NCBI GenBank assembly: GCA_013153145.1
Contig: JAADEY010000032.1
Coordinates: 1-51,656, forward strand
Source of the DNA: Thermoproteota archaeon
GTDB lineage: Archaea > Thermoproteota > Thermoprotei_A > Sulfolobales > Pyrodictiaceae
Direction: 5' to 3'
Length of the DNA: 51,656 bases
The position numbers and the translations under genes are program-made. Below, one piece after another: positions 42,130-50,364 of this stretch. Numbering within the stretch: the stretch's first letter is position 1; each line of letters opens with the position of its first letter. The notes under the pieces were generated by a model. That model did not search any database. It was not told the origin of the DNA and saw only the letters and a program-made list of their open reading frames with translations.

Positions 42130-42613
42130 CGAGGAGGAGCTCTGCCGCCTAGCCCTCCTCGGGCTCGGCGTGGTGGCGCCGCTGCTGAGGAGGATAGGCG
42201 CCAGGGATGCCAAGCCGGTGGAGGCGTCCTTCGACCCGGAGGCGCCCAGGCTCCTCCTAAAGGCCGAGGCGCCGGGATACCGGGTTAGCGTCGACGTGGC
42301 CCCTGACGGCGTGGAGGAGACTGTGGAGGTGCCTGGCCTGCCTAGGGGCCTCGACGAGGACTCAGCCGAGGACTCGGCAGCCGAGGTTATTGAGGAGTGG
42401 GGTGAGGCGGAGGGAGTGGAGGAGTACGACGTCGACTACGACTCCGGGGAGGGCCTATTAGTAGTCACGCTGAGGGCCAGGCTGGCGGAGGATCTACCCC
42501 CGCTCGACGTGCTGGTTGACAGGGTGAGGCAGAGGCTGACGGCGATGGGGACTGCTAACGCGTCTGAGCCCCGCGGCGGTGATGACGCCCTCGATCACCG
42601 ACAAGCCTCCTAG
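42083..42613 (+). CDS. Hypothetical acidic protein downstream of tatC
   Basis: A protein of about 176 residues with no family I recognise. It has a short helical N-terminus (ECERLNRELGYQPNEEELCRLALLGLGVVAPLLRRIG). Strand-rich segments (RLLLKAEAPGYRVSVDVAPDGV; GEGLLVVTLRARL) surround a very acidic middle (EDSAEDSAAEVIEEWGEAEGVEEYDVDYDSGEG). GTG at 42083 is chosen because AGGAGG lies nine bases upstream; the frame is open earlier within tatC. It overlaps tatC by 47 bases and the convergent Mut7-C gene by 59, which supports coupling to tatC. Confidence 0.65.
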   Translation: MKECERLNRELGYQPNEEELCRLALLGLGVVAPLLRRIGARDAKPVEASFDPEAPRLLLKAEAPGYRVSVDVAPDGVEETVEVPGLPRGLDEDSAEDSAAEVIEEWGEAEGVEEYDVDYDSGEGLLVVTLRARLAEDLPPLDVLVDRVRQRLTAMGTANASEPRGGDDALDHRQAS

Positions 42614-43076
42614 CCTTCTCGAGTATCAGCTCTATCCCCCTCCAGTGCCTGCCCTTCCAGTATACCTGTCCGCAGCCCGTGCAGATCCAGAACTCGCTCC
42701 TAGTCTCGTACACCCTCCTCGGAACCCTGCCCCGCACCTCGCTCTTCAACGCTCTACGGAGCGGCGCGTTGCAGAGGGGGCATCTCGACTCGTCGGGGTT
42801 GAGCTCTAGTCTTATCCCAAGCCTTGAGGCCACTATCGCTATCCTCTCCGCTATATCCGTCGTATCCACCGGTATCACTGGCACGCCCTTCTTACGCGCC
42901 CTTATATAGAGCCCCCTATCCCTCGTCAAGAGTATCCTGTGCTCCTTGGCTGCCTTCTCGACTATGAGGGAGTCCGGGAGATCCCTAGCGTATACCGTGT
43001 CGTAGCCGAGCATCCTAAGCCATCTAGCCAGGTCGCCCAGCATAGCGTCCGCTATGAAGCGCAGCCTCCTCGGCAT
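42555..43076 (-). CDS. Mut7-C RNase-domain protein with zinc ribbon
   Basis: A 173-residue member of the Mut7-C (DUF82) family, a PIN-like nuclease fold fused to a zinc ribbon. The N-terminus RFIADAMLGDLARWLRMLGYDTVYARDLPDS and TRDRGLYIRARKKGVPVIPV carry the acidic residues of the nuclease site. CPLCNAPL and CTGCGQVYWKGRHW form the four-cysteine ribbon. An RNA-processing role is inferred from the fold. Its 5' end overlaps the oxidoreductase gene by 53 bases. Confidence 0.88.
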   Translation of the reverse strand: MPRRLRFIADAMLGDLARWLRMLGYDTVYARDLPDSLIVEKAAKEHRILLTRDRGLYIRARKKGVPVIPVDTTDIAERIAIVASRLGIRLELNPDESRCPLCNAPLRRALKSEVRGRVPRRVYETRSEFWICTGCGQVYWKGRHWRGIELILEKARRLVGDRGRHHRRGAQTR

Positions 43077-43974
43077 GGCCTGCCTCCTCTAATACTCTGA
43101 GGGCTCTGACGGCGTCCCATAGGCTTGGCTGTGCCCAGAGGGATTCATGACCCTTACCCTCAACCCTTGCTATGAACGCCTCTAGCTCGGCTAGGAGCGG
43201 CTCCTTGCCGTTGAGGCTTATCCTTCTCGGCGGGGCCCAGTGGCGGTGGAGTATCACCTCAAGCTTATCCGTGTCGGCCTCCACGAGCTCATCCATCGTG
43301 ACAACGGTTATCCTCCTGTACTTCACGGGTGATAGGCCGCTCACATGTATCAATGCAGTTCTCTCACCACTCCTAAGCGTTATGTGCACAGCCTCATCGA
43401 TACTGGTCTTGACCCTCGTCATTGAAGCCTCCTCAACCCCGCCGAGCATCCACAAGGCCATGTCTATATCGTGTATGGCTAGGTCGAGTGCTATAGGCGT
43501 TGACTTCAGGTGGTCCGGCCTCTGGCTCAGCCGGTAGAAGTACGCCTCCACAACGCCACTCCAAGCTATGCTCCGCTTCAGCCACTGCACCACGGGGTTG
43601 AACCTCATGATGAAGCCCGGTACAGCGACAAGCCCCCTAGACTCGGCGAGCCTTGCGAGCTCCTCAGCCTCCCTACTAGTATAGGCCACCGGCTTCTCGA
43701 CGAAGACGTGCAGGCCAGCGTTCAACGCGTCCCTGGCGACCCTCGCCAGCTGGGAGGGAGTCACAGCTATCACTGCGGCATCGGCGCCGCAGCCCCTGAT
43801 AGCCTCCAAGTGGCTATAGTACGGCTTCGCGGCGTAGAGGCTGCTGAGCTCGTCTGCAGCCTCCCTACGGACATCAGCTATGCATAGGAGCTCGGCGTCG
43901 GGTATCCTCGAGAGGGCACGGGCTATGTTCCTCGCCCACCTCCCAGCACCTATGAGGAGCACGCCCACTGCCAA
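43024..43974 (-). CDS. Gfo/Idh/MocA-family NAD(P)-dependent oxidoreductase
   Basis: A 316-residue dehydrogenase acting on a sugar or related polyol. The Rossmann motif is LIGAGRWARNIARAL, and the catalytic-site signature is EKPVAYTSREAEEL with its conserved Glu-Lys-Pro. A C-terminal substrate domain includes DLAIHDIDMALWMLGG. The substrate cannot be read from the sequence. It lies downstream of the TldD-like gene with a 33-base gap and overlaps the Mut7-C gene, so it may be the tail of a long minus-strand transcript. Confidence 0.88.
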   Translation of the reverse strand: MAVGVLLIGAGRWARNIARALSRIPDAELLCIADVRREAADELSSLYAAKPYYSHLEAIRGCGADAAVIAVTPSQLARVARDALNAGLHVFVEKPVAYTSREAEELARLAESRGLVAVPGFIMRFNPVVQWLKRSIAWSGVVEAYFYRLSQRPDHLKSTPIALDLAIHDIDMALWMLGGVEEASMTRVKTSIDEAVHITLRSGERTALIHVSGLSPVKYRRITVVTMDELVEADTDKLEVILHRHWAPPRRISLNGKEPLLAELEAFIARVEGKGHESLWAQPSLWDAVRALRVLEEAGHAEEAALHSGRYAGRPG

Positions 43975-44007
43975 GCCTCAGCATCCAGGACTCCAGGCAG
44001 CCACGGC

Positions 44008-45225
44008 CTAGTCTACATAGGCTTTCAGCCTAACAGTAGGGGCAGCCTCAGCCACCACGTAGCCCTTCTCAAGCCCGACCCTAAGCCACCTCCTCCGCCC
44101 AATAGCGTCGATGGATGAGAGGTCGCGCAGCCTAACCCTAACCCTGGAGACGCGCAGGGGTGTGAGCGAGCCACGCTCAACATACCAGGCCGACTCGGGG
44201 ACGATCGTTATGACACCCTTATCGTCGAGCCATGCCTCCGCAACAGAGTCCACCATTATCCCCCTCCTGGTCTCCTCAAGCACCTCATCCTCCCTCCAGT
44301 CGCCCTGCTTCATGACAAGCGTCGACCACCCGGGGAAGGGGCGGTGGAAGAGGCCCACCGCGTTACCCGGCCTGCCGCCGGTCCTGCATGCAGTCTCCCT
44401 GGTCTCGAGCCACTCCCTGACAACGCCATCCTCGACAAGAGTCTTCCTCCTAGCCTCAACGCCCTCGTCGTCGAAGAGCCTGGCCGCCGGGCTGCCGGGG
44501 TAGAACGGGTCATCGATTATGGTTAGCTCCTCGTGGAGCCTAGCCCCCCGCGGCAGCTTGGATGGATTGCTTGCCTGTAGGCAATGCCCTATCTCGTGTA
44601 GGAGTGCGGCGGAGGCATCACGCGTGAGTATGACGTCCCAGCGGCCCGAGGCTAGGGGGTTAAGCATCCCCGCCTTCGCCTGGAGGGACGCCCTATACTT
44701 CAACTCCTCAACAATCCTCCTCAGCGCCACCACGTGCTCCGACCTGGGGGCCCCGAGGAACCCGACACTGGCCGAGACGGCGCCCCGCCCGGCGGCAGCA
44801 GCCAGGGTGACCACGGTAAACCTCTTATCCTCTACTGCCTCGCCGCCGCGGGGCCATCTTATGGCCCTCCTAACATGATACATTGACGCGACGAGCTCGA
44901 CGTCGCCCTCGCCTACAACCCGCTCGACGAGCCTAACAACATCCTCTACACCGCCCTCGCCGCCGATGCATGCCCTGCCGTGGTACATCCTCGCCTCCGC
45001 TAGGCACCCCCTCCCCCGGTAGACCGGGGTGTGGACGGTTAGCTCGCCGAGCTCCTCGACGCGGGGCGCTGAGGTGATTATCCATGCACCGTTGTAGACG
45101 CGTTGAGCGATGCTACCATACCTATAGCTATTGACTTCTACCGAGCCAAGCCTCCACGCGGCATCAACCACGTGGATCGTGTAGGAGACAGTATCCATAT
45201 ACTGTAGGGTGCACGCGGGGGTCAT
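44008..45225 (-). CDS. TldD/PmbA-like metalloprotease, divergent
   Basis: A 405-residue relative of TldD, which with TldE degrades or matures small peptides. Family blocks are LIIDDPFYPG-like IIDDPFYPGSPAARLFDDEGVEARRKTLVEDGVVREWLETRETA. The zinc motif here is LLHEIGHCLQ (His210, His214), i.e. HEXXH, whereas TldD as I remember it has HEXXXH. The C-terminal cysteine ligand of TldD is not apparent. No TldE partner gene is nearby. A TATA-like box near 45252-45262 predicts an almost leaderless start at ATG 45225. Confidence 0.82.
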   Translation of the reverse strand: MTPACTLQYMDTVSYTIHVVDAAWRLGSVEVNSYRYGSIAQRVYNGAWIITSAPRVEELGELTVHTPVYRGRGCLAEARMYHGRACIGGEGGVEDVVRLVERVVGEGDVELVASMYHVRRAIRWPRGGEAVEDKRFTVVTLAAAAGRGAVSASVGFLGAPRSEHVVALRRIVEELKYRASLQAKAGMLNPLASGRWDVILTRDASAALLHEIGHCLQASNPSKLPRGARLHEELTIIDDPFYPGSPAARLFDDEGVEARRKTLVEDGVVREWLETRETACRTGGRPGNAVGLFHRPFPGWSTLVMKQGDWREDEVLEETRRGIMVDSVAEAWLDDKGVITIVPESAWYVERGSLTPLRVSRVRVRLRDLSSIDAIGRRRWLRVGLEKGYVVAEAAPTVRLKAYVD

Positions 45226-45304: not shown

Positions 45305-46114
45305 TTACTTGGCGTGCAGGGTGACCATCTTCAGTAGCTCTATGAGCGTTATTACACCCATTATCTTGTCTCCCTGTACAACTATGGCTCCCTTGCTGTT
45401 CTTCCTCCTCATCCTCTCATAGACCTCCGGCAGGGGGTCGTCGGGCGCGGCGACCGGCGGCCTAGGCCTCATTATATCCGCTACCAGTAGGTGCTCGATC
45501 CTCTCCTTCCGATACTTCTCCGGCACTATCTCGTGGAAGGCGAACAGGGCGTCAGCGACCTCGTCCACGGTTACATAGCCTATCGGTTTACCCTCATCAT
45601 CTATGACCGGGAGGAATAGCAGGTTGTACTGAGTTAGCAGCTTCCTTGCATGGAGAACCTTATCAGTCATCTTGAGGGCGAACGGCAGCGTGGCCGCAGC
45701 CTCTATAGCCTTCAAGTCCTCCCTATCCCTTATGAGCGCCGCAGCCTCCCACCTAGTAACCAGGCCAACTAGCTCGCCAGCCTCATTCAGCACCGGTAGG
45801 CTCCCTATACCCTTGCCGAGCATGACCTCCGCGGCCTTGACCGCCTCCTCGGTATCCCTTATAGTGACCGGGTCTATGCTCATGAAGCTCGACACGTGGA
45901 GCCTGCCGGGCACCAGGCGCCTCGTCCTCAACGTTGCAAGCTTCATCATTATATCCTTCTTAGTCATAATCCCTACGAGCTTGCCCTTCTCAACGACCAC
46001 AACCCTGTCGGTATCATACCTCCTCATAACTCTAACGGCGTGCTCCAGCGTCTCATCCTTATCGACTACAGGGAAGTCCTTAAGCATTATATCGCGTACC
46101 AGGAGGCCCGCCAT
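45305..46114 (-). CDS. Stand-alone CBS-domain protein, four CBS motifs
   Basis: A 269-residue protein built only of CBS motifs. The repeats start near residues 5 (VRDIMLKDFPVVDKDETLEHAVRVM), 76 (FMSIDPVTIRDTEEAVKAAEVM), 143 (degenerate) and 213 (VADIMRPRPPVAAPDDPLPEVYERM). Each carries the GI-x-T/L end pattern such as LVGIMTKKDIM and LVGLVTRWEA. Paired CBS motifs bind adenosine compounds, SAM or nucleic acid. No catalytic domain is attached, so it is probably a sensor or adaptor. It is last of four adjacent CBS genes; the gap to the previous one is 13 bases. Confidence 0.9.
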   Translation of the reverse strand: MAGLLVRDIMLKDFPVVDKDETLEHAVRVMRRYDTDRVVVVEKGKLVGIMTKKDIMMKLATLRTRRLVPGRLHVSSFMSIDPVTIRDTEEAVKAAEVMLGKGIGSLPVLNEAGELVGLVTRWEAAALIRDREDLKAIEAAATLPFALKMTDKVLHARKLLTQYNLLFLPVIDDEGKPIGYVTVDEVADALFAFHEIVPEKYRKERIEHLLVADIMRPRPPVAAPDDPLPEVYERMRRKNSKGAIVVQGDKIMGVITLIELLKMVTLHAK

Positions 46115-46127
46115 GACCCATCCTCTC

Positions 46128-46958
46128 CTAAAGCCTTGTCAAAGCCTCCAAGATATTATGCTTTGTCACTATACCCCTCACAACACCCTCAGAGTCTACG
46201 ACGGGCAGGCTGCTGAAGCCATGCCTCACCATTAGCCTGGCCGCGTCCGCCAGGTCGGCGTCCGGCGCTATAGTTATCGGGTCCGGGGTCATGACGTCCG
46301 CGGCGACAAGTATATCCGGCGCCGGTATCTTGGCGGGGAACGCCTTCACTCCTGGGACGCGCTGGGTCTTCTTACTCCTCTTCTGAGGCGCGGGCCTAGC
46401 GAGGAACGCTATGTCGGAGGGGGCTATGATGCCCACGAGCCTCTCGCCGTCAAAGACGAGCACGCGCTTACTCGGGGTGGACTCCATGAGCCTCGCGACA
46501 TAGGCTATGCTGTGCAGCGGCGACGCCCTCGCCACCTCCCTATACATGTACTCCTCGACCCTGCACTTGCCGCGGCACTTCTCCATAAACGCGTGGACTA
46601 GGTCAGTCTTCGATATAATGCCTATAAGCTTGCCATCCTCATCGACGACCGGCAGTCCCCCAACACCCTTCTCGACCATCAGCCTCGCAGCAGTCTTCAG
46701 CGAGTCACTGGGCTTAACCGTCACCGGATCCCTAGTCATGTACTCCAACACCCTAATGGAGTCAAGTGAACGATCACCAGCACTCCTCATAGCCCTGGCG
46801 ACGTCGTAGAGCGTTATTATGCCGACAACCCTCCCAGCCTCATCTATGACTGGGAGCCTCCCAACCTCATACCGGAGCATGAGCCTCCTCGCGTGCGCAA
46901 GCGTGTCTCCCGGCCTAACGACCACAACCGGGCTAGTCATGTACTCCTCGACGCGCAT
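46128..46958 (-). CDS. Stand-alone CBS-domain protein, four CBS motifs
   Basis: A 276-residue protein of four CBS motifs: EYMTSPVVVVRPGDTLAHARRLM near the N-terminus, EYMTRDPVTVKPSDSLKTAARLM near 72, a weaker one near 135 (EEYMYREVARASPLHSIAYVARLM), and ADVMTPDPITIAPDADLADAARLM near 218. A basic linker (RPAPQKRSKKTQR, about 188-200) separates the third and fourth. Ends such as VVGIITLYDVA and LIGIISKTDLV are classic. It follows the third CBS gene by only 7 bases and is presumably co-transcribed. Its ligand and partner are unknown. Confidence 0.9.
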   Translation of the reverse strand: MRVEEYMTSPVVVVRPGDTLAHARRLMLRYEVGRLPVIDEAGRVVGIITLYDVARAMRSAGDRSLDSIRVLEYMTRDPVTVKPSDSLKTAARLMVEKGVGGLPVVDEDGKLIGIISKTDLVHAFMEKCRGKCRVEEYMYREVARASPLHSIAYVARLMESTPSKRVLVFDGERLVGIIAPSDIAFLARPAPQKRSKKTQRVPGVKAFPAKIPAPDILVAADVMTPDPITIAPDADLADAARLMVRHGFSSLPVVDSEGVVRGIVTKHNILEALTRL

Positions 46959-46965
46959 CCCCCGT

Positions 46966-47904
46966 TCACCCCGTCGTCGCTAGTCCGTAGAGCACGTCCC
47001 TCTCAGTCACTATCCCGACGACCCTACCCTCGCTGACGACGAGGAGGCAGCCGACGCCCTCCCTTATCATCAGTGTTGCGGCGTCGCCGACGTCGACGTC
47101 GGGCTCTACGGTGACATAGGATCTTGTGCCGACGAGCTTGACCGGTGCCTTCATCATGTCCTCTAGTAGGGGGCTCTCGGTGAACCTGAACGCGTCGTGG
47201 CTTCCGAAGAACTTGACTATGTGTTTCGCAGTGATAAGCCCCCATATGCTTCCATCATCCTCTATGACTGGGAGCCTCCTAACCGAATACTTAATCATGG
47301 TCTTGGCGGCCTCCATGATGGTCGCGCTGGAGTTTATCGATATGACGTTGCTGGTCATGACCTCCCTCACTGTCTTGCCTACGTGCTTCTCGACTAGGTG
47401 TTTAACGAGGTCGTGCTCCGTTATAATCCCATATATCTTGCCGTCGGGCTTGACGACTGGGAGCACGCCAACATTCCTAGTAACCATTATCTCCAGTATC
47501 TTCTCGAGCCTATCACTCACCGTCACGTAGTACGGGTTGGGGTTCATTATGCTCTCGACCTTCTCATCGTTCAACGCCTTATACGCGTTGCCACCATACC
47601 TCTTCACGACGATGTTGTATAGCTCGCCGCCTCCGAGATAGTTAACATAGTCCATGACGGTCGTCATTCCCTCGAGCAGCTTGGTCGCAGGGTGGGATAC
47701 CGGCAGCGCCCTGATATTCTTCTCCGCTATCAGCTCCATTGCCTCAAGTATGCTGGTCGTACGGGTGACCGTGTAGACGGGCCTGGTAGCCAGCAGCTGC
47801 GCGTCGCCAGGCTTCCTGTGTATCCTGTCACCGAAGTTAGGCTTACCATCACTCCTAAGCCAGCGGATGCCCTCCGGCCTACGAGGGGGTATTATGCGTC
47901 TCAA
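46966..47904 (-). CDS. Stand-alone CBS-domain protein with basic N-terminus
   Basis: A 312-residue protein with an Arg-rich N-terminal 30 residues (RRIIPPRRPEGIRWLRSDGKPNFGDRIHRK) followed by four CBS motifs. They are TRPVYTVTRTTSILEAMELI, ESIMNPNPYYVTVSDRLEKILEIM, REVMTSNVISINSSATIMEAAKTM and EDMMKAPVKLVGTRSYVTVEPDVDVGDAATLM. The basic tail could bind nucleic acid; that is inference. The TTG start at 47904 lacks an obvious ribosome site. A perfect 12-bp inverted repeat lies just upstream, and a weak minus-strand TATA-like sequence (CTTCTTTACC) lies between its arms. Confidence 0.88.
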   Translation of the reverse strand: MRRIIPPRRPEGIRWLRSDGKPNFGDRIHRKPGDAQLLATRPVYTVTRTTSILEAMELIAEKNIRALPVSHPATKLLEGMTTVMDYVNYLGGGELYNIVVKRYGGNAYKALNDEKVESIMNPNPYYVTVSDRLEKILEIMVTRNVGVLPVVKPDGKIYGIITEHDLVKHLVEKHVGKTVREVMTSNVISINSSATIMEAAKTMIKYSVRRLPVIEDDGSIWGLITAKHIVKFFGSHDAFRFTESPLLEDMMKAPVKLVGTRSYVTVEPDVDVGDAATLMIREGVGCLLVVSEGRVVGIVTERDVLYGLATTG

Positions 47905-47915
47905 GCTGAAGGGGC

Positions 47916-47969
47916 ACCCGGGGCTAGAAGGTGAGTCTTGCTGGTAAAGAAGCCTCCCTAGCCCCGGGT
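47916..47969. repeat. Perfect 12-bp inverted repeat inside the CBS gene cluster
   Basis: ACCCGGGGCTAG (47916-47927) is repeated as its exact complement CTAGCCCCGGGT (47958-47969) across a 30-base spacer. It fills most of the 75-base gap between the fourth and third CBS genes. It could be an operator with half-sites flanking a TATA-like box, or an RNA hairpin with a 30-base loop controlling readthrough. Confidence 0.6.
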
Positions 47970-47979
47970 AGACGGTGTG

Positions 47980-48438
47980 CTACTCCTCCCCCTCCTCCTC
48001 GGCAGGCCTCTCCGAGCCGCTCACGACGTAGAGGTACTCTATTAGGCCGGGGGCTATCCTCACTATATCCGTCCTCGTTATGACGCCCTTCAGCCTCCCA
48101 GCCTTGTCGACTACGGGTAGGTGGCCGATCCCCCTCTCCCTCATGATGTCTGCCGCGACACGTAGCGGTGTATCCTCCTCAACTATTATCGGGTTCCTCG
48201 TCATGACCTCCTCGACGAGCGTCTCCGAGGGGTTCAAGCCCCTGGCTACAACCCTCTTCACTATATCGCTCTCGGTGAGCACGCCGACCACGCGGCTCCG
48301 GTCATACTTGTCAACAACTATCACGCTGCCGACATCATTCTCAGCCATCTTCCTAGCGGCGTCGACGACAGTCTCATCGGGGAATGCCACTACAAGGTCG
48401 CGTGACATTACATCCGATACCCTAAGCTCCTCCGACAA
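47980..48438 (-). CDS. Stand-alone CBS-domain protein, two CBS motifs
   Basis: A 152-residue protein with one CBS pair: SDVMSRDLVVAFPDETVVDAARKM (about 8-32) ending in VVGVLTESDIVKRV, and EEVMTRNPIIVEEDTPLRVAADIM (about 76-99) ending in LKGVITRTDIVRI. An acidic tail follows. A single pair is the minimal nucleotide-binding unit. The start is TTG 48438 with GGGAG five bases before it. It is the first of four consecutive CBS genes and lies 53 bases behind the TYW3 gene. Confidence 0.9.
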   Translation of the reverse strand: MSEELRVSDVMSRDLVVAFPDETVVDAARKMAENDVGSVIVVDKYDRSRVVGVLTESDIVKRVVARGLNPSETLVEEVMTRNPIIVEEDTPLRVAADIMRERGIGHLPVVDKAGRLKGVITRTDIVRIAPGLIEYLYVVSGSERPAEEEGEE

Positions 48439-48491: not shown

Positions 48492-49109
48492 TCAACGTAG
48501 GCGGCTGGCAGCAGGCCCCCAAAGGGTCTTCGGCCTCCTCGCCCTCAGGGCCTCCAGGAGCCTCACGTTCCTCTCCTTGGCCTCTACCAGGGCCCGGTTC
48601 GCGAGCCTGACGAGGGCGTCCAGGTCAGCTACATACACTGCGTCCCGGTCGATGAGGGGGGCTGCCACCCTTATCCCCGTGCGGAGCTCTAGGAGCAGCC
48701 GGTCCCCGGAGGCTACCATGACGCCGCTGTGCTTGAAGCCCGCCTCCCTAGCGGCTTCAAGCACCTCGTTCGCCTCCTCAAGGTCTTTCACGTAGACATG
48801 GTATATCGGGCCTTGAACCGAGAGCCACAGCCTATACCTATAGGGCCTCTCCATGACGGCGCGCAGCTCCTCTACGCGGAGCGGCCGGTGAACCTTGTAT
48901 ACTATTGTCGCGTCGTCCTTCCTCCAGGGGTACTCCGCGTCTATCACCGTTATCCTCCCACTGCAGCTACTCGATGTATACGCCTTCGGCCTCGCAAACA
49001 ACTCCACTATCACCGGCAGGGCGTCCTCGTCCAGGTATCCTATCTCTAGATCCTCCCACAGCCTCCTCCACAGCGCCAGCTTATCCTCGTCCCAGCCCGC
49101 CACATGCAC
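48492..49109 (-). CDS. tRNA wybutosine-synthesis protein TYW3-like
   Basis: A protein of about 205 residues of the TYW3 family, which methylates N4 of the wye base at position 37 of tRNA-Phe using SAM. The hallmark SSSCSGRITVID is near residues 46-57, followed by HRPLRVEELRAVMERPYRYRLWLSVQGPIYHVYV and the GVMVASGDRLLLELRTG block. The open frame runs further upstream, but that part is unlike the family. GTG 49109 (or 49103) is chosen because a minus-strand TATA-like CCTTTATC at about 49138-49145 predicts initiation near 49115. TYW1 and TYW2 are not in view. Confidence 0.85.
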   Translation of the reverse strand: MHVAGWDEDKLALWRRLWEDLEIGYLDEDALPVIVELFARPKAYTSSSCSGRITVIDAEYPWRKDDATIVYKVHRPLRVEELRAVMERPYRYRLWLSVQGPIYHVYVKDLEEANEVLEAAREAGFKHSGVMVASGDRLLLELRTGIRVAAPLIDRDAVYVADLDALVRLANRALVEAKERNVRLLEALRARRPKTLWGPAASRLR

Positions 49110-49206
49110 CGCCAGGAGGCTGGTTAAGGGAGGGTTGATAAAGGGGCTCTGCGTGGTTGGGGAGGAGTAAACGGATGAGACCTGACAAGGGGGGAGGGGT
49201 GGCGTC

Positions 49207-50364
49207 ATGGCTTCCCTGCTGGAGAAGCTGAAGCCTATGAGCCGCGGCCAGGAAGAGATGCTCGAGGCCTTGAAGTCCAAGGAGTATGATATAGTGGGCT
49301 TGTTCGGGCCCACGGGGAGCGGTAAGAGCCTCTTCAGCATACTCTACGGCATAGATGCAGTCCTAAACGGCGACTACAAGAGACTGATAATATCGAGGCC
49401 CGTGATAGACGTCGTCACCGGCAGGGAGTTGACGGCGCAGGAGCTCGGCCCACAGTACTATGAGATAATGTCGATGTACCTCCGCGACATACTAAGCGGC
49501 TTCATAGAGTGGGAGAAGGTAGAGGAGCTTATGAAGGAGGGTAAAGTGATACTCGCAGACACACACTACCTCCGCGGCAGAACCTTCGACGAGTCAATAA
49601 TATTCCTCGACGACGCGCAGAACGTGCCACCCGAGAGCAGCATAGAGATACTCATGAGGATAGGCAGGGACAGCAAGTTCGTCGTAGCTGGCGACCCCGT
49701 CTTCCAGAAGCCATACGGCGTCGAGAGGGACGGGGCAACGGTGCTCAGGGAGCTGCTCATAGGAGAGGAGGACGCCAAGGTAGTCGACCTAGGCCTCAAG
49801 GACATCGTGAGGCCCGGCGCCAGGAGGGGTATAAGGCTATTGATAGAGATGAGGATGAGGAACAGGCCGCTCAGCGAGACCGAGAAGAAGGTCGTCGAGG
49901 CAGCCAAGATATACGCCCCGGACGCCGACGTTATAACAGTGGTCGAGTTCAGGGACTACAAGCAGCAGTTCGAGATAAAGTCCGAGAACGTGCCCGACGC
50001 AGTCATAATAGTGAAGGAGGGCTACCTCGGCCGCCTGGTCGGCAGGGGCGGGGAGAGGATACAGAAGATGGAGGAGGACACCGGCCTCAAGCTGAGAGCC
50101 GTGGAGCTGACACTAGACTTCACCAACATAATAAGGGCAATACACCCGGTCGCATGGATACACAAACACATAGTGGACGTCGACTTCAAGGGCCCATACC
50201 TAGCAGTAGCAGTCAAGAGCAGCGAGTTCGGCGCCTTCGTCGGACAGAAAGGCTTCTACGTGAAGTTCCTCGACGCGGTGTTCAGGAGGCTTATGGGGAT
50301 AGGGGTAAGGGCATACGAGGTCGCCGAGGAGAGGGGAGGCAGGAGGCACCGGAGGCGCCGCTAA
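49207..50364 (+). CDS. PhoH-like ATPase fused to tandem KH RNA-binding domains
   Basis: A 385-residue protein. The PhoH-type P-loop domain has Walker A GPTGSGKS (34-41), Walker B FLDDAQN (Asp135-Asp136) and the GDPVFQKPYG region. From about residue 262, a KH domain has the GRGG loop (279-282) in EGYLGRLVGRGGERIQKMEEDTG. A second KH-like unit has GQKG (346-349). The end is Arg-rich. PhoH ATPases act with RNases or as RNA helicases, and the KH pair points to RNA binding. It diverges from TYW3. ATG 49207 follows GGGGAGGGG. Confidence 0.9.
   Translation: MASLLEKLKPMSRGQEEMLEALKSKEYDIVGLFGPTGSGKSLFSILYGIDAVLNGDYKRLIISRPVIDVVTGRELTAQELGPQYYEIMSMYLRDILSGFIEWEKVEELMKEGKVILADTHYLRGRTFDESIIFLDDAQNVPPESSIEILMRIGRDSKFVVAGDPVFQKPYGVERDGATVLRELLIGEEDAKVVDLGLKDIVRPGARRGIRLLIEMRMRNRPLSETEKKVVEAAKIYAPDADVITVVEFRDYKQQFEIKSENVPDAVIIVKEGYLGRLVGRGGERIQKMEEDTGLKLRAVELTLDFTNIIRAIHPVAWIHKHIVDVDFKGPYLAVAVKSSEFGAFVGQKGFYVKFLDAVFRRLMGIGVRAYEVAEERGGRRHRRRR

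Follow-up and report, generated by a model that had tools for sequence, protein, structure and literature searches.

A conserved cluster of stand-alone CBS-domain genes in a Pyrodictiaceae genome and its probable relation to archaeal ribosome hibernation factors

The closest described systems to the gene cluster considered here are archaeal proteins composed of CBS domains that are found on, or are proposed to act on, ribosomes. Structures of the Methanosarcina acetivorans 70S ribosome carry, according to their PDB titles, SriA with SriB (9ZNF), SriC with SriD (9ZNI), or SriD (9ZNG), and their uL2 and uS19 proteins do not differ in sequence from those in other M. acetivorans ribosome entries (PMC12605026). 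Stand-alone proteins with four CBS domains (4-CBS proteins) have been classed as CM-1 to CM-6, and CM-1, CM-2, CM-4 and CM-5, which are clustered (CM-5/4/1/2) and exclude HibA, a CBS module fused to an HPF/RaiA domain, are proposed as hibernation factors; Dri, solved from Pyrobaculum calidifontis (9E6Q, 9E7F), is a fusion of CM-5 and CM-1 (Madru et al. 2026, PMC13324472). Here, we analyze a block of four adjacent CBS-domain genes in a 51,656-nucleotide contig (JAADEY010000032.1 of assembly GCA_013153145.1; hereafter the window) from a hyperthermophilic Thermoproteota archaeon of the family Pyrodictiaceae.

We describe the protein families of this block, the conservation of the cluster, the occurrence of its relatives on 70S ribosomes, its mutual exclusion with HibA, and its conserved disordered peptides. 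We put at roughly 80% the probability that this is the sri or CBS-module cluster of archaea in its Pyrodictiaceae form, encoding ribosome hibernation factors. Clusters of this kind are already known, although their descriptions date only from 2025-2026. Our analysis adds the Pyrodictiaceae variant, in which the SriA-type gene is lost and Dri is present, the conserved companions encoding a protein with two CBS domains (2-CBS protein) and a Mut7-C RNase, and a conserved tail in one of the 4-CBS families.

The 4-CBS proteins and their ribosome-bound relatives

The initial annotation of this DNA had described four minus-strand genes encoding proteins of 152, 312, 276 and 269 amino acids (aa), with 2, 4, 4 and 4 CBS motifs and no enzymatic or channel domain, and gaps of 7 and 13 bases between three of them. 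These statements hold: the open reading frames (ORFs) lie as listed in Table 1, the motif scan and Pfam agree on the counts, CBS is the sole Pfam domain in each protein, and the gaps, in the order 269-276-312-152, are 13, 7 and 75 bases. The block (45305-48438) contains 14 of the 32 CBS motifs of the whole assembly (1.19 Mb, 78.8% complete), all 14 above the curated cut-off, and random placement would bring 4 of the genome's 10 CBS-bearing ORFs together within 3.1 kb with a probability of about 1.5e-5. The genes are not clustered by chance, and stronger evidence for this comes from other families, in which the block is conserved. A scan for promoters and terminators used bacterial-type models and is uninformative for an archaeon.

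When the window proteins were compared with all PDB chains by phmmer, residues 22-308 of the 312-aa protein matched residues 47-331 of 9ZNF chain 5 (9znf_5) at E = 1.3e-46, and the profile of its family matched the same chain at E = 3.8e-75. The 276-aa protein matched MJ1225, Dri and 9ZNI chain 6, with which it aligns end to end (residues 1-272 with residues 1-279 of 9zni_6, E = 3e-25), and the 269-aa protein had full-length matches to 9zng_7 (E = 4.5e-26) and 9zni_7 (E = 5.9e-26). MJ1225 aside, the best full-length solved relative of each 4-CBS protein is an Sri protein; MJ1225 and AMPK gamma also rank high in a fold search. Since 9ZNG holds SriD alone, SriD must be chain 7, which leaves chain 6 as SriC. 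The pair SriA and SriB corresponds, in one order or the other, to chains 4 and 5 of 9ZNF, and the gene order found here would fit A-B-C-D. The 312-aa protein is the orthologue of 9ZNF chain 5 (SriA or SriB), and gene order makes SriB the more probable of the two. In relatives, a further 4-CBS gene, here called SriA-type, lies between the 152 and 312 genes, and its product matches 9znf_4 (E = 6e-28). The 312-, 276- and 269-aa proteins each have four CBS domains and none of another type; the 152-aa protein has two, has only generic CBS matches among solved structures, and is a conserved partner of the cluster that stands outside the ribosome-bound families.

In a maximum-likelihood tree built from 98 CBS modules, 9znf_5 and MJ1225 grouped with the 312 family (support 96/82) and SriD with the 269 family (96/89). 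The 276 family formed a clade with SriC and the Dri C half (100/99), and the family of the missing SriA-type gene formed one with 9znf_4 and the Dri N half (100/98). In the CM nomenclature, the missing gene would be CM-5 and the 276 gene CM-1, and topology would make the 269 gene CM-4 and the 312 gene CM-2. If these assignments, made from the tree topology, are right, the order in this lineage is CM-5/2/1/4 rather than CM-5/4/1/2, with CM-5 lost from the window. The cluster resembles the Sri set in its 4-CBS families, and differs from it in lacking a relative of 9ZNF chain 4 and in possessing an extra 2-CBS gene. Unlike Dri, in which two modules (8 CBS) are fused, the window proteins are single modules.

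Conservation of the block, exclusion of HibA and the basic segments

The block was compared with 41 related loci in the window's own family (f1) and in families f2, f4, f5, f6, f8, f9 and f10. On the same strand as the 312 gene, the SriA-type gene lies directly upstream in 34 of the 41 loci, the 276 and the 269 genes lie downstream in 31 loci each, and the 2-CBS gene lies upstream in 25; in most families of the order the 269 gene adjoins the 312 and 276 genes. The usual order in relatives is 2-CBS gene, SriA-type, 312, 276, 269; departures from it are mostly losses, apart from an inverted 276 gene in f5 and a 269 gene located elsewhere in f6 and in genome G055. Conservation in relatives, which the initial annotation had put forward as a check, is therefore established: the block is kept together in most loci as a unit conserved across families of the order, and its genes are not scattered and independently inherited.

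Presence of the 312 gene was scored against presence of HibA, with counts given as 312 only / both / HibA only / neither. Among 58 relatives these were 42/0/10/6 (Fisher p = 1.5e-7), and at class level, in 127 genomes, 78/0/39/10. One of the 312-positive genomes is represented by a fragment, and the weaker partial matches to the 312 profile in the Sulfolobaceae-like family f11, which mostly begin near residue 105, were counted as paralogues. The HPF/RaiA domain (PF02482) occurred in 10 of the 58 relatives, always in a frame about 380-393 aa long, the length expected of HibA, and had no match in the genome or family of the window, the cluster included. The 269 gene behaves likewise, being present in 38 genomes and in none of those with HibA, and within family f5 one genus has HibA and its sister genus the 312 gene. 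The cluster shares with HibA a related 4-CBS module and the same proposed role, but lacks the C-terminal HPF/RaiA domain, and the two distributions are mutually exclusive. Such an exclusion is what is predicted for hibernation factors. It independently replicates, with the window's own gene and in genomes chosen around the window, the pattern of either HibA or a CBS-module set described previously (PMC13324472). Three genomes of family f7 (G025, G035 and G054) have neither HibA nor the 312 gene and encode proteins related to the N half of Dri (38-39% identity), possibly a further hibernation variant.

The initial annotation had also pointed to a basic N-terminus in one protein and a basic linker in another, and had suspected contact with nucleic acid. 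Both segments are real and conserved in position in the alignments, and the suspected contact fits rRNA (ribosomal RNA) as its target. The model of the 276-aa protein has a mean pLDDT (predicted local distance difference test score) of 85.7 and a disordered linker, at whose position in the alignment SriC and Dri-C have long basic loops; a long loop between CBS3 and CBS4 is also described for HibA and Dri (PMC13324472). Most of the family carry a KGR motif in this loop, which the window copy has lost while remaining basic. The CBS3-CBS4 loop is long, basic and disordered in the 276-aa protein and short in the 269-aa protein, and the 312-aa protein has instead a conserved basic N-terminal tail. 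With one row per genus, this tail is among the most conserved 15-residue stretches of its family (mean frequency of the commonest residue 0.81, versus 0.55 in the CBS core), and it is predicted to be disordered (pLDDT 33-38). Such conservation in a peptide that is disordered on its own suggests that it folds upon binding a large partner, presumably rRNA. The idea that M. acetivorans shares the full RWLRSDG tail was considered and rejected; the profile match begins only at PNF/PSF, and the part upstream is not shown to be shared.

Table 1. Features of the CBS block and its surroundings (window coordinates)
Feature	Coordinates	Strand	Remark
Mut7-C RNase-domain gene	42555..43076	-	PF01927, E = 5.9e-50; downstream neighbour kept in several families
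269-aa protein gene, 4 CBS	45305..46114	-	SriD-type CBS module
276-aa protein gene, 4 CBS	46128..46958	-	SriC / Dri-C-type CBS module
Basic linker of 276-aa protein, residues 187-215, between CBS3 and CBS4	46314..46400	-	pLDDT under 50
312-aa protein gene, 4 CBS	46966..47904	-	orthologue of 9ZNF chain 5
N-terminal tail motif of 312-aa protein, residues 13-27, IRWLRSDGKPNFGDR	47824..47868	-	conserved, predicted disordered
Gap of 75 bases	47905..47979	-	site of SriA-type (Dri-N / CM-5-like) 4-CBS gene in relatives
152-aa protein gene, 2 CBS	47980..48438	-	conserved cluster companion; generic CBS matches among solved structures

The missing SriA-type gene, Dri and the neighbouring genes

The window has no SriA-type gene, and at its place between the 312 and 152 genes lies only the short gap. 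A profile search of the assembly for this family at E = 1e-30 found only the N half of a Dri orthologue, an absence limited by the 78.8% completeness of the assembly. A remnant of the gene at the locus was likewise rejected, given the 75 bases available and the lack, at this threshold, of any related stretch of the genome other than Dri. The orthologue of Dri, an ORF of 627 aa, lies on another contig (C40, L074:3918-5801) and matches P. calidifontis Dri over residues 81-610 at E = 1.8e-57. Dri and the cluster occur together in most members of f1 and in f4, f6 and f10; two copies of Dri are present in genome G008, and in G037 the gene is split into two ORFs (frames of 225 and 416 aa). Five of the eight genomes that have lost the SriA-type gene possess Dri, which possibly covers for the lost protein, but substitution by Dri is only a suggestion because genomes of f9/g16 lost the SriA-type gene without having Dri. 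A further 4-CBS protein of 304 aa is encoded on contig C37 (L075:3252-4166); it is sister to the clade of the 312 family and MJ1225, and is perhaps the CM-6 family of PMC13324472.

Families f1, f4, f8, f9 and f10 have the Mut7-C gene downstream of the cluster, in the same orientation, and it is the sole downstream neighbour common to several families. Neither it nor the 2-CBS gene is mentioned as a neighbour in the portion of the text of PMC13324472 available to us. TYW3 and PhoH adjoin the block only in f1. Genes for a TldD-like protein and a Gfo/Idh/MocA oxidoreductase lie between the cluster and Mut7-C (43024-45225) only in the window and in genome G002, which suggests a lineage-specific insertion. 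As listed, the TYW3 ORF (48492-49340) runs into the beginning of the divergent PhoH gene. Because the Pfam match begins only at residue 87 of 282, the gene itself probably starts near 49100. Divergent from TYW3, a PhoH-KH gene is followed by a putative metallopeptidase gene (PF18894; 49207-50869), a pair that is conserved in f1 and resembles the bacterial phoH-ybeY arrangement.

An improbable but more elaborate version of the system in Pyrodictiaceae is one in which Dri would replace the SriA-type protein as partner of the 312-aa protein, the 2-CBS protein would be a fifth, adenylate-reading component, and the Mut7-C RNase would be a functional part, for example one that trims RNA at or near parked ribosomes. 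A partnership of the Mut7-C RNase with the hibernation cluster is possible in its own right.

Proposed role and alternative readings

Each 4-CBS protein folds as a disc of two Bateman pairs, the disc-like form of MJ1225 and AMPK gamma. If the block encodes hibernation factors, these proteins would most likely accumulate or become free at low energy and occupy the vacant transfer RNA and messenger RNA (mRNA) sites of idle 70S ribosomes, with the CBS3-CBS4 loop of the 276-aa protein and the N-terminal tail of the 312-aa protein inserted into rRNA. The ribosome would thereby be silenced and protected until growth returns. Because it is related to Dri-C, the 276-aa protein would act on the mRNA channel of the small subunit. 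The S/T-x-x-D signature of CBS domains contacts the ribose of the nucleotide; it is kept in 3 of 4 CBS domains of the 312-aa protein, 2 of 4 of the 276-aa protein and 1 of 4 of the 269-aa protein, and a reading of the sequence shows it in both of the 152-aa protein. From the family and from these motifs, adenylate binding is plausible, and AMP or ATP, when bound, may tune ribosome binding; HibA binds AMP with no clear effect on its binding to the ribosome (PMC13324472).

Several observations weigh against this interpretation or limit it. In the tree, SriC is closer to Dri-C than to the 276 family; a topology that joins SriC to the 276 family and leaves Dri-C outside is worse by 6.4 log units and is rejected at the borderline (approximately unbiased test, p-AU = 0.046), which leaves strict orthology of the 276-aa protein and SriC unsettled. 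Identity of the window proteins to those of M. acetivorans is roughly 25-35%. MJ1225, described as an AMPK-gamma homologue, falls inside the 312 clade, and a non-ribosomal role is therefore possible. The counts on which the exclusion rests are phylogenetically non-independent, HibA occurring in three lineages. Every function assigned to the window proteins is inferred: that they bind ribosomes, where they would do so, that adenylates control them and that Dri substitutes for the lost SriA-type protein.

The proteins could instead be ribosome-associated factors of growing cells, serving biogenesis, subunit joining or quality control. The f1 neighbours TYW3, PhoH-KH and Mut7-C all concern RNA, and the label of hibernation rests on Dri, HibA and the PDB titles of relatives; however, the cluster excludes HibA, which has been shown to protect idle ribosomes (PMC13324472), and CM-1 and CM-4 have been detected in dormant M. 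acetivorans ribosomes (cited in PMC13324472), so that a role confined to growth is quite unlikely.

A second alternative, close to the proposal of the initial annotation, is a multi-subunit adenylate sensor like AMPK gamma that controls enzymes of the same transcript, namely TYW3, the TldD-like protein, the oxidoreductase or the Mut7-C nuclease. The ranking of MJ1225 and AMPK gamma in the fold search, the common direction of the genes and the conserved position of Mut7-C favour a sensor. A self-contained multi-subunit complex finds no support: the solved relatives are bound to 70S ribosomes, either alone or two together; nearby genes offer no kinase-type partner, and the strong exclusion of HibA points to the ribosome. 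As clients, TYW3, the TldD-like protein and the oxidoreductase were rejected, their neighbourhood not being conserved, and Mut7-C stands as a neighbour in several families but not as the target of a sensor. We regard this alternative as very unlikely.

A third possibility is that the proteins are transcription regulators like HhpR (CM-3), which is itself a stand-alone archaeal 4-CBS protein and has a CBS3-CBS4 loop (PMC13324472), and that they act through basic segments that bind nucleic acid. We consider this most unlikely, since the NCBIfam HhpR matches, at 57-84 bits for the 4-CBS proteins and 58 bits for the 152-aa protein, are far below the NF053603 cut-off of 520 bits, CM-3 shows no exclusion of HibA in PMC13324472, unlike the 312 and 269 genes, and the nearest solved relatives of the window proteins are ribosome-bound. 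The anti-phage CBS protein DS11 (NF053863) was also rejected, with scores of at most 91 bits against a cut-off of 260.

Read as a hibernation cluster, four 'CBS domain proteins' become three candidate ribosome hibernation factors and a conserved companion in a hyperthermophile lineage. A genome that has Dri together with a cluster lacking one member offers a natural experiment in which modules can stand in for one another, and the conserved disordered tail of the 312 family provides a specific, testable prediction of a ribosome contact.

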